Of a DNA stretch of 64,000 bases, positions 45,868 through 49,059 are shown in pieces. Made by a program: the position numbers and the translations under genes. The notes below the pieces were generated by a model, which was not told where the DNA came from, did no database searches, and saw only the letters and a list, made by a program, of their open reading frames with translations. This DNA is from Thermococcus siculi (GTDB lineage: Archaea; Methanobacteriota_B; Thermococci; Thermococcales; Thermococcaceae). The stretch lies in the NCBI RefSeq assembly GCF_002214505.1, contig NZ_CP015103.1:1860001-1924000 (forward strand), in the 5' to 3' direction. Each line of letters begins with the position of its first letter. The first letter of the stretch is position 1.

Positions 45868-46476
45868 ATGCACGAACTCCTATCAACTAGGGAACGCGTA
45901 AGAATCCTTGAAGAAGTCCTGCAGAAAAACATTGTTGGGGTAGAGGAAGTTGCGAAGAAACTCGGGGTCAGCAAGGGACTGGTATCAAAGACCCTTCAAC
46001 TTTTAGTGAAGCATGGAATCGCCGTGAAGGCTGGAAGGAGGTTTAGAATTCTCAACATGCCAAAAACACGGGAGTTAAAGCGGTTTTTGAACTTCATGAT
46101 GCTCTCGGAGAAGCTTGAAGGGCTTAGAGAGGACTGGATGATAAGTCTCGGTATTTACGGGAGCTTTGCCTTAGGAGAGAACATGGAGGAGAGCGATATT
46201 GACGTTTGGGTGCTCGCGAGGAGGGATGAGCTAATCAAGTCCGCGAGGCTCAAAAGGAAGATTGCGGAGCTAACGGGCAGGGAGGTGGATCTGATAGTCT
46301 TAACGCCATCGAGGATAGCCAGACTCAGAAAGGAGGATCCGGTCTTTTACTACTCCCTCGTCTACGGCTCAATGGTTATATGGGGTGAGCGGCTTGACAG
46401 GGTTCAATCTTTGCGTGGAGAGAAACCTGCTGAGAAGGATAGCTCCATCCAGAGAGAAGGCATTGCTGAGCATTAA
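45868..46476 (+). CDS. HTH-nucleotidyltransferase (MNT) antitoxin-like protein
   Basis: A 202-residue two-domain protein. Residues 1-65 form a winged helix (VEEVAKKLGVSKGLVSKTLQLLVKHGIAVKAGR). Residues about 85-175 are a minimal nucleotidyltransferase with GSFALG (98-103), Asp110 and Asp112 in ESDIDVWV, and Asp141 in VDLIVL, the full metal triad. In HEPN/MNT modules the MNT partner silences the HEPN toxin, in some cases by AMPylating it. Here the added HTH and the dyads upstream suggest it also controls the operon. It overlaps the HEPN frame by 92 bp. Confidence 0.88.
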   Translation: MHELLSTRERVRILEEVLQKNIVGVEEVAKKLGVSKGLVSKTLQLLVKHGIAVKAGRRFRILNMPKTRELKRFLNFMMLSEKLEGLREDWMISLGIYGSFALGENMEESDIDVWVLARRDELIKSARLKRKIAELTGREVDLIVLTPSRIARLRKEDPVFYYSLVYGSMVIWGERLDRVQSLRGEKPAEKDSSIQREGIAEH

Positions 46477-46831
46477 ACGGGCGGAGGAGTGGCTGGAGGA
46501 GGCCAGAAGGAATATGGAGTTTGGCTCATACAGGACTTCCCTCATGGCTTCGTACCTTGCGATGTTCCACGCCGCCAGAGCAGTGCTGTTCCGAGACGGA
46601 TGGAGGGAGAAAAGCCACTACTGTGTCGCAAGGTATCTTGAAGAGTTCTACGTTAAAAGCGGGAAGCTTGAAGGGTCCTGGGTGGAACTCCTCGACAGGA
46701 TGAGGGAACTCAGGCACGAAGACCAGTACGACATTTCATATACGCCCGAACCCGAGGAAGTTGAAGAGGCTTTAAAAGTCGCCAAGGATTTTATCAAGAT
46801 TATAAAATCCCTCGTTGGTGCAGAACTATGA
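46385..46831 (+). CDS. HEPN domain protein, toxin-like partner
   Basis: A protein of up to 148 residues whose body from about residue 24 is a HEPN four-helix domain: REKALLSIKRAEEWLEEARRNMEFGSYRTSLMASYLAMFHAARAVLF, then HYCVARYLEEFYV and LDRMRELRHEDQYDISY. Arg105 and His111 give an R-x5-H spacing compatible with the HEPN RNase motif, though the match is not textbook. The start is uncertain: GTG at 46385 gives a long overlap with the MNT gene and a later GTG near 46415 is possible. It overlaps the next gene as ATGA. Confidence 0.8.
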   Translation: MSGLTGFNLCVERNLLRRIAPSREKALLSIKRAEEWLEEARRNMEFGSYRTSLMASYLAMFHAARAVLFRDGWREKSHYCVARYLEEFYVKSGKLEGSWVELLDRMRELRHEDQYDISYTPEPEEVEEALKVAKDFIKIIKSLVGAEL

Positions 46832-47226
46832 AACTCATCATCAAACCCGAGAAGGGCTTTGGGAAGATTGAGGTCGAGCTGGATGAAGACCTGGTGAGCG
46901 AGATAAACAGAATGAGCGAGCGCTATGGCGTTTCTCCTGAGAGGATAATCGAGATAGCGCTGACCGGGGAATTCAAAAAAAGCTCCGGCGAGCTTGAGGA
47001 GCTGGAAAGGAAGTTCGGAGAACTCGAAGAGAGAACGTGGGAGCTTGAGAAGGAGTACGCCCCGCTCCGCTTCAAGGCCTATGGCGTGAGCGAGGACAAC
47101 AAGGTACTCGCCATCGAGCTTTCCGGCCTCATAGCGGAGAACAGCCAGCTGAGGAGGTTCCTGGGACTAAGGCCGGAGCGCAACCTCGAGCTGAGAAAGC
47201 TTATATCCTACTATCTCCAAGGCTGA
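46828..47226 (+). CDS. Small protein with RHH-like start and coiled coil, third member of HEPN operon
   Basis: A 132-residue protein. The first 45 residues (KIEVELDEDLVSEINRMSERYGVSPERIIEIALTGEF) have the strand-helix-helix pattern of ribbon-helix-helix proteins; a Glu-rich coiled coil (ELEELERKFGELEERTWELEKEY) and a short helical end follow. It overlaps the HEPN gene by 4 bp, so it is co-translated with it. A role as additional regulator or scaffold is inferred from position only. Confidence 0.6.
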   Translation: MKLIIKPEKGFGKIEVELDEDLVSEINRMSERYGVSPERIIEIALTGEFKKSSGELEELERKFGELEERTWELEKEYAPLRFKAYGVSEDNKVLAIELSGLIAENSQLRRFLGLRPERNLELRKLISYYLQG

Positions 47227-47229
47227 AAC

Positions 47230-47284
47230 GCGGATGATGACAGCGAATTGCGCGGATCGGTGAAGAGCAACGCTATCTGACGCT
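47230..47284 (+). ncRNA. Probable C/D box guide RNA (first of two)
   Basis: Box C AUGAUGA (47234-47240), a 12-nt guide, box D' CGGA (variant, 47253-47256), a 3-nt spacer, box C' GUGAAGA (47260-47266), a 10-nt guide, box D CUGA (47277-47280), with GCG/CGC flanks to close the kink-turn stem. Order and spacings are those of Thermococcales 2'-O-methylation guides. Implied targets are CGCAAUUCGCUG (D' guide) and AUAGCGUUGC (D guide), methylated at the fifth nucleotide from the box. No ORF covers it. Confidence 0.6.
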
Positions 47285-47287
47285 GCT

Positions 47288-47368
47288 CCGGACGGGCTGT
47301 GACGATTCCAAGACGGGCTGAACCGCCTAGCGGTTGTGACGTGCCCTATGAGCGCCGAGCCCGTCCGG
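47288..47368 (+). ncRNA. Structured RNA, C/D-like (second of two)
   Basis: A perfect 11-bp stem (CCGGACGGGCT, 47288-47298, with AGCCCGTCCGG, 47358-47368) encloses C-like GUGACGA (47299-47305), a 12-nt spacer, CUGA (47318-47321), a 6-bp hairpin AACCGC/GCGGTT, C'-like GUGACGU (47336-47342), another 12-nt spacer and CCGA (47355-47358). This is the C/D layout with two imperfect boxes. GACGGGCTG is duplicated inside (47291 and 47312), so the 3' arm could pair with either copy; a switching or regulatory RNA is the alternative. Confidence 0.4.
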
Positions 47369-47520
47369 GGCATGATTTTAAATGAGCTGCCATCTGCACC
47401 TGTAAGACTTTTTCTTGTCCTTTGTCTTTGGAATTTCCAGAAACCTAACATGTCGAGCCGTAAATCTTATAATTTTTCCACTCTAAATATGTGGTCACTG
47501 ATGGACAGGAGGTGGAACAA

Positions 47521-48492
47521 ATGAAATCAAAAGGACTTGTTGTAGCCTTCCTGATCTTGAGTGCCCTCATATGGGTACCCGGAGCCAAGGCCAGCGGAAC
47601 TAATCTAAGCGGATACACCATCTGCGTTGATGCCGGACACGGAGGAAAAGACCCAGGAGCGGTCGGCTACGTTGTCGAGAAGGACGTCAACCTCGCCATA
47701 GGCCTCAAGGTTGCGCAGATTCTTGAGATGGACGGTGCGAACGTCGTGCTCACGAGGGACGGGGACTACTTCGTCACGCTCTCTGGAAGGGTTCAGATAG
47801 CCAACTCCGCCGGCTGTGACATCTTCATCAGCATCCACGCAAACTCCGGTCCAAGTTCCGCGACTGGCTTTGAGGTCTACCACTACTACACCTCAAGCAG
47901 GGGAAGGACCCTTGCCACCTACGTTGACGAAGAGATCGCCAAGCTAGTACCCCTGAAGAACAGAGGGGTTAAGAGTGCCGGCTATTACGTTCTCAAGTAC
48001 ACCCACATGCCGGCCATACTCATTGAGACCGGCTTCGTCACCAACTCATACGATGCCAGTATAATAAACGACGAATCATACCAGTGGAAGTACGCCTACG
48101 CGATCCTCCACGGCGTCCAGCGATACTTCGGCGTTCCCGTCCACGATCCACTACCAACCGTAACGGGAATCCGCTTTGCAGACCACGGAAGCTACTTCCG
48201 CCTTGTACTCGACCTGAGCCAGTCGACTAGGTACCACGTTTACTATACCTCCTACTCAAACGGCTACCACCTCGTTATCCAGGTTGACAATGCCCAGCTC
48301 GCTGACCTTGGTTGGCCAGTCTACAGCGGCTGGTACTACACGTACACCGGTTCGAACACGGCCCCAATAATCTACGCAACCCAGAGTGGGAGCACAGTAT
48401 TCATCGTGGTTGGGCTGAACAGCCCGTACCGCCCATACAGAGACTTCACCCTCTCAAACCCTGACAGAATAGTCGTTGATATCTATCCCTGA
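47521..48492 (+). CDS. Secreted Amidase_3 (N-acetylmuramoyl-L-alanine amidase-like) with AMIN-like domain
   Basis: A 323-residue exported protein. A signal peptide of about 24 residues precedes a complete Amidase_3 zinc site: His40 in [11 protein letters not shown], Glu53 in VEKDVNLAI, His106 in SIHANSG and catalytic Glu169 in LIETGFVTN. From about residue 220 an AMIN-like beta domain follows ([20 protein letters not shown] ... [13 protein letters not shown]). In bacteria such enzymes cut murein; this archaeon has none, so the substrate must be different (S-layer glycan, pseudomurein-like or bacterial prey/competitor walls). TATA near 47464; GGAGGTGG before the ATG. Confidence 0.9.
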
Positions 48493-49001
48493 GGCTTCTT
48501 TCTCCTTTTTTGCTTCTTCCGCTTCCTCTTCGGTATCAGCCTCACGGGGCTACCGCAGTCAGGGCATATGCCATCGGGTGGCATCTCCTCGAACTTCTTC
48601 CCGCAGCCGATGCAGACGTAGTTCCAGCGGATAACGCGCTTTATGCCCCGTTTGAGGGTCCTGAACTCTATCCCGAGGGTCTTCGCGATGTTCTGGAGGT
48701 TGTAGTCGTCGGTAAGGAGAATTCCATTCACCTCGTAAGCCAGTGCCAGGATTTCAACGTCGGCCTCGCTCAGCTCCCCAAGCTCGCCGGTTCTCCTCGC
48801 TGCGTCTTTAACGGCCTCGATGCTCTCCCGCGACGGCACCAGCACACGAACCTTCCCCGCACTGATGAGTCCCTCAAGAAAGAGCCGCGATTCCGGGTCT
48901 CTCACCTCCTCAACGACCTTCGGTGTCGTGACCCCCTCGACGTCCATCCCCTGGATGAATATCGCGGCATCGATCACATGGATTTTCCCGTTTTCCATCA
49001 T
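48483..49001 (-). CDS. nob1: Ribosome-maturation endonuclease NOB1
   Basis: A 172-residue PIN-domain nuclease that in archaea and eukaryotes trims the 3' end of 16S/18S rRNA. Acidic residues of the PIN site are in [27 protein letters not shown] and [11 protein letters not shown] zinc ribbon follows ([21 protein letters not shown]), then a basic tail ([12 protein letters not shown]). The start is ATG 49001 or 48998. It overlaps the end of the amidase gene by 10 bp. Confidence 0.94.
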
Positions 49002-49059
49002 GGTGCCAACTCGGAGAAACCCTTTTTTAGATTTCCGTCGAAAGGGGAGCGGTGAGAGC

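Follow-up and report, generated by a model that had tools for sequence, protein, structure and literature searches.

The window, the whole 64,000-nucleotide stretch of Thermococcus siculi DNA that we analysed, contains at 47521–48492 on the plus strand an open reading frame encoding 323 amino acids (323 codons plus stop), which its Pfam matches and structural relatives identify as a putatively secreted N-acetylmuramoyl-L-alanine amidase gene. An archaeal promoter element, the TATA box CTTATAATTT (47465–47476, +), lies about 50 nt 5' of its start, and a ribosome-binding site, GGAGGTGG (47509–47516, +), follows. Comparison of 14 orthologs revealed that both signals are kept: each has a TTTATAA-type box about 45–50 nt before the start, and most have a GGAGGTG-like ribosome site, which is less clear in two or three. 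The first residues of the protein, up to about 24–25 (47521–47592, +), have the hallmarks of a Sec signal peptide cleaved by signal peptidase I: a K-rich basic start, a hydrophobic core (mean hydropathy 2.7 over residues 5–19) and an A-K-A motif preceding Ser25, with no transmembrane-like stretch downstream in the hydropathy profile. From these features we infer that the amidase is exported. A preliminary description of the locus had proposed a good archaeal promoter and ribosome site, a signal peptide, and a secreted Amidase_3 protein with an AMIN-like domain; the signals were all found, and Pfam together with N-terminal hydropathy confirmed the architecture.

The catalytic domain spans residues 34–200 (47620–48120, +) and matches Amidase_3 (PF01520) over positions 1–173 of the 174-position profile (E 5.9e-56; 189.7 bits against a cut-off of 27). 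The zinc site (His40, Glu53 and His106) and the catalytic Glu169, all four of which had been named in advance, are present and invariant in an alignment of 15 Thermococcus proteins and 28 bacterial and phage homologs, and they correspond to the zinc and catalytic residues described for the family (His17, Glu32, His85 and Glu145 in AmiP; PMC9929850). An AlphaFold2 model, predicted with bacterial homologs accompanying the query, gave block pLDDT values mostly of 88–98 for this domain, and its top Foldseek matches were 4rn7, 5emi and 1jwq, with TM-scores by target of about 0.9. Among solved structures, Nostoc AmiC2 (5emi) and Paenibacillus CwlV (1jwq) have the nearest catalytic domains, at 37–44% identity in the Foldseek alignment.

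Residues 213–321 (48157–48483, +) form an AMIN-like domain, matching both AMIN-like PF24837 (E 1.4e-9; 38.6 bits against a cut-off of 27) and AMIN PF11741 (E 3.1e-7; 30.9 bits against a cut-off of 20.5). All three Pfam matches thus exceed their curated cut-offs, and all three recur in 15 of 15 Thermococcus proteins. The C-terminal part was weak in a first AlphaFold2 run; modelled alone with five bacterial AMIN sequences, it reached a pLDDT of 77.5 and a pTM of 0.74. The best Foldseek match of this model was AmiC (4bin), with a probability of 1.00 and a weak E-value of 3.4e-3, while VIA-align returned Z-scores of 9.3 to the Synechocystis protein 5h3k, 9.1 to residues 30–144 (the AMIN domain) of E. 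coli AmiC 4bin, and 8.0–8.2 to PilQ, the small-heat-shock rows being clearly lower at no more than 5.7. The domain had earlier been described as a septal-ring targeting module; we favour wall binding instead, because AMIN is a peptidoglycan-binding domain according to Rocaboy 2013, as relayed in PMC10268282. The C-terminal domain would accordingly bind murein, although this is not certain for the Thermococcus copy, as AMIN also occurs in proteins such as PilQ that are not amidases.

In AmiA, AmiB and AmiC, a helix carried on an insert blocks the zinc site and has to be displaced by an activator (PMC10268282). These three enzymes align with the Thermococcus protein in two stretches with the insert between them, and AmiC2 and CwlV align with it in one; the alignment against AmiA/B/C thus shows the autoinhibitory insert to be absent from the Thermococcus amidase. 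Judged from the alignment and the model, the zinc site should be open and the enzyme independent of an activator. The preliminary description had held that an occluded active site would speak against its reading; the predicted structures match the open-site amidases AmiC2 and CwlV. We also considered whether the protein is itself a division amidase of the AmiA/B/C type, and rejected this identity since it has no regulatory insert and its AMIN domain is not N-terminal.

Distribution, selection and genomic setting

The Amidase_3 gene is present in 16 of 61 Thermococcus genomes, about a quarter, with one of these copies (G048; G and L numbers are our own labels) being no more than a fragment that carries a frameshift and sits at the end of a contig, and it is absent from all 33 genomes sampled from five other Thermococcaceae genera. 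A phylum-wide sample added one genome from another family of the same class (G107), in which a protein at L153 has a distant Amidase_3 match of 70 bits and a different C-terminal part. Searching Thermococcaceae with the AMIN-like profile returned nothing besides the amidase proteins. Pairwise dN/dS by NG86, for which pairs of very low divergence are uninformative, was mostly 0.03–0.08 for the catalytic domain and about 0.10–0.15 for the AMIN part. As both domains have low values, the gene is maintained by purifying selection and is not decaying; this selection and the E-values together establish that the amidase match is not due to chance. The earlier impression of a functional gene is therefore borne out by intact domains, purifying selection and a conserved promoter.

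Apart from G069, all carriers whose flanks could be read have the amidase between an ORF like that at 46828–47226 and the 3' end of NOB1. In the window, the latter border is a convergent NOB1-like PIN/zinc-ribbon gene (48486–49004, −; PIN_6 8e-19 and synteny). The variable slot is bordered on its other side by an sR-tMet-like C/D box sRNA (47294–47362, +) that scores below the Rfam gathering score (RF02163; 35.2 bits against 50, E 2.4e-4) and is conserved across Thermococcus. It stands in tandem with an sR41-like C/D box sRNA gene (47230–47283, +), likewise below its gathering score, and the pair marks one edge of the slot, whose acquired genes differ from one Thermococcus species to the next. 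Sixteen other Thermococcus genomes have a slot of only 161–215 bp, in which the two sRNA genes abut NOB1; elsewhere its content varies: a P-loop kinase with or without a radical SAM (DUF512) partner, a secreted protein of 512 aa that matches no Pfam family, or a roughly 1010-aa protein. Where the amidase accompanies the radical SAM/kinase pair, it lies on one side of it in some strains and on the other side in others. The secreted protein of about 512 aa occurs in the slot at L106 (G070), L130, L138, L147 and, in part, L114; in G070 it adjoins the amidase, and it is possibly another secreted effector or an accessory protein.

Variably present beside the slot, and at 45868–46831 (+) in the window, are an MNT-type nucleotidyltransferase with an HTH and a HEPN protein, likely a toxin–antitoxin module, with weak PADLOC matches to candidate PDC-M05. 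A search of defence-system families with the amidase itself gave no match. The idea that the amidase forms one system with pxpABC, MNT-HEPN or NOB1 was rejected, as those neighbours persist without it.

The G069 copy, the most divergent ortholog, occupies another chromosomal site (L105:8207–9193) beside nitrilase-like and tRNA-binding-domain genes, and the gene has therefore entered at least two sites. In the amidase tree, G019 and G062 group with the window genome, G028 and G030; in a FastTree of concatenated flank genes, which serves as a local reference only since flanks may recombine and some placements (G001) look wrong, they group with G032 and G043. Imposing the flank grouping on the amidase tree was rejected with a p-AU of 4e-6, a value we treat as indicative because the constrained group was picked after viewing the trees. 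Taken together, the variability of the slot, the separate site in G069 and the conflict between trees show that the amidase gene has been exchanged within Thermococcus.

Bacterial ancestry and domain order

A tree of 114 catalytic domains, whose search centres did not include thermophilic phyla such as Thermotogota, grouped the Thermococcus proteins into a single clade with a support of 99; its stem is long, it lies amid Bacillota and phage-type enzymes, and it has no close sister. The stem and the missing sister led us to give up naming a bacterial donor. The position of the clade nonetheless agrees with the acquisition from bacteria proposed earlier: the gene is almost certainly bacterial in origin, and a single such origin is likely. 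One apparent archaeal relative, on a contig of the Euryarchaeota MAG ARS96 (L073), was set aside, since its amidase nests inside Flavobacteriaceae; that contig is probably mis-binned or mislabelled.

The bacterial two-domain proteins at L054 and L082 carry AMIN ahead of the amidase. The order Amidase_3–AMIN was absent among 80 GTDB loci and 80 viral loci, as well as in about 450 genomes of two phyla, where no match extends past profile position 236; among plasmid sequences, no place matches the amidase query over 80% of its length. The Thermococcus order is the reverse of the bacterial one, although its absence from these samples does not prove it unique, the bacterial, viral and plasmid search not being exhaustive.

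Likely function and its alternatives

No protein of the Mur ligase family (Mur_ligase_M) was found in the organism's own 99.94%-complete genome, whereas the same profile detected members in 12 of 14 control genomes. Because the family is missing, neither murein nor pseudomurein is expected in the host; the preliminary description had likewise stated that Thermococcales have no murein. Building on the domains, active-site residues, predicted fold, selection, promoter, distribution and within-genus transfer, we think it probable that the protein is a constitutively active, secreted murein amidase that is held at the wall by AMIN and lyses neighbouring bacteria, for competition and/or nutrients, and that its gene is a bacterial one moving among Thermococcus strains. 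Removal of the signal peptide would release a mature protein of about 33 kDa. The AMIN-like domain would hold it on the bacterial sacculus through murein, and the catalytic domain, with an open zinc site and no blocking helix, would be always on and cleave the MurNAc–L-Ala amide. The producer, having no murein, would require no immunity, and would gain from the lysis of bacterial neighbours by way of reduced competition and/or the nutrients released. The gene would have come from bacteria, probably once, acquired its genus-specific architecture, and then spread by recombination between strains into the variable slot. Its nearest PHROG families are endolysins, and AmiP, an Amidase_3 enzyme from a Thermus prophage, is lytic and stable to about 100 °C (PMC9929850). 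Patchy distribution and transfer of archaeal peptidoglycan hydrolases have been read as signs of an arms-race weapon (Strock 2025, PMC12352652), and the Thermococcus gene fits that argument in its patchy presence among near relatives, its transfer and the lack of a self-target. Against this, the outer sheath of vent bacteria such as Thermotogales could shield their murein from the amidase.

In a bolder version, the enzyme would be a genus-specific antibacterial weapon of hyperthermophilic archaea whose catalytic-first, AMIN-last order, not known from bacteria, was put together once the gene had been captured, and which Thermococcus strains trade through the slot beside the C/D box sRNA genes. 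This strikes us as rather unlikely as a whole; if true, the amidase would rank as the first antibacterial enzyme from Thermococcales and as a murein amidase active near 90 °C.

Thermococcales feed on peptides, and the amidase could instead trim murein debris of dead bacteria for them, live cells not being killed. The Discussion of PMC12352652 leaves such scavenging possible, and archaea with these enzymes more often encode Opp-type uptake of murein peptides (PMC12352652); yet scavenging would help all relatives, three quarters of the sampled congeners have no such gene, and no murein-recycling genes adjoin it. As sequence cannot separate killing from scavenging, we grant the latter a substantial, if minority, share of the probability. 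A role on the producer's own envelope, with the S-layer glycoprotein or another amide-linked polymer as substrate, would suit a predicted secreted protein under purifying selection. Against this role, most species that have this envelope do without the gene: 45 of 61 congeners lack it, as do all 33 genomes sampled from sister genera, where the S-layer is shared. All strictly conserved active-site residues are, moreover, those of murein amidases, and the AMIN-like domain is found nowhere else in Thermococcaceae, so that we regard an envelope role as improbable. Thus, where the preliminary description had weighed three substrates equally, bacterial neighbours stand, while an S-layer or household role is opposed by the fully conserved murein-amidase site and the murein-binding module that accompanies it, as well as by a patchy distribution in which most close relatives lack the gene.

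The endolysin matches, and the position of the catalytic domain within a radiation holding many phage endolysins, might point to a phage or virus lysin residing in a provirus or integrated element. However, no viral genes lie nearby, the conserved chromosomal flanks (NOB1, pxpABC, AlkA) place the gene at the same site in most carriers, a signal peptide and AMIN are unlike endolysins, and viruses of a murein-less host would have none to lyse; we consider this origin very improbable. Even less credit is due to an inactive relic, for which only the frame-shifted fragment in G048 speaks, and contamination is already refuted: there are 15 intact copies, several of them in complete chromosomes, their dN/dS is well under 1, and both their syntenic flanks and their promoters are archaeal.

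Comparison with known enzymes

Few molecular examples of antagonism between archaea and bacteria are known, and we found none for Thermococcales in the literature searched. These organisms can be manipulated genetically and live at vents alongside Thermotogales and other bacteria, and a single-copy, intact accessory gene that some species have and close relatives lack makes the question of weapon or feeding testable. A hyperthermophilic, activator-free amidase could also serve in applications that call for a heat-stable lytic enzyme. A full-text literature search returned no paper on a Thermococcus enzyme of this kind, and Thermococci are not named in the main text of PMC12352652, in its Primer or in PMC4241558; supplementary tables may already list the gene.

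Peptidoglycan hydrolases of archaea already form a recognised class (PMC12352652, PMC4241558), and as an enzyme kind already known in archaea (Strock 2025; Metcalf 2014) the Thermococcus amidase is a new instance. With a catalytic murein-hydrolase domain, a wall-binding domain and a host without murein, it probably belongs, as judged from its sequence, to the archaeal modular peptidoglycan hydrolases as Strock et al. define them. Like Woldo and Danwoldo of Halogranum salarium (Strock et al. 2025, PMC12352652), it combines a murein-hydrolase domain with a wall-binding domain and a signal peptide, and it shares with the enzymes of that study an archaeal host without murein, a patchy distribution and transfer from bacteria. 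The enzymes tested there are an M23 peptidase or glucosaminidase with PG_binding_1, whereas the Thermococcus protein is an Amidase_3 with AMIN. The GH25 muramidase of Aciduliprofundum boonei (Metcalf et al. 2014, PMC4241558) is likewise a bacterial murein hydrolase that a hydrothermal-vent archaeon acquired, and it was shown to kill bacteria, but it is a muramidase of unrelated fold. Among bacterial enzymes, E. coli AmiC (PDB 4bin) and AmiB have both Amidase_3 and AMIN domains, but with AMIN first rather than last (residues 213–321 in Thermococcus), and AmiC has the regulatory insert with its blocking helix, which the Thermococcus protein does not. Nostoc AmiC2 (5emi) and Paenibacillus CwlV (1jwq) provide the closest solved catalytic domains and have the open zinc site that is predicted for the Thermococcus enzyme, differing in being bacterial and in their other accessory domains.
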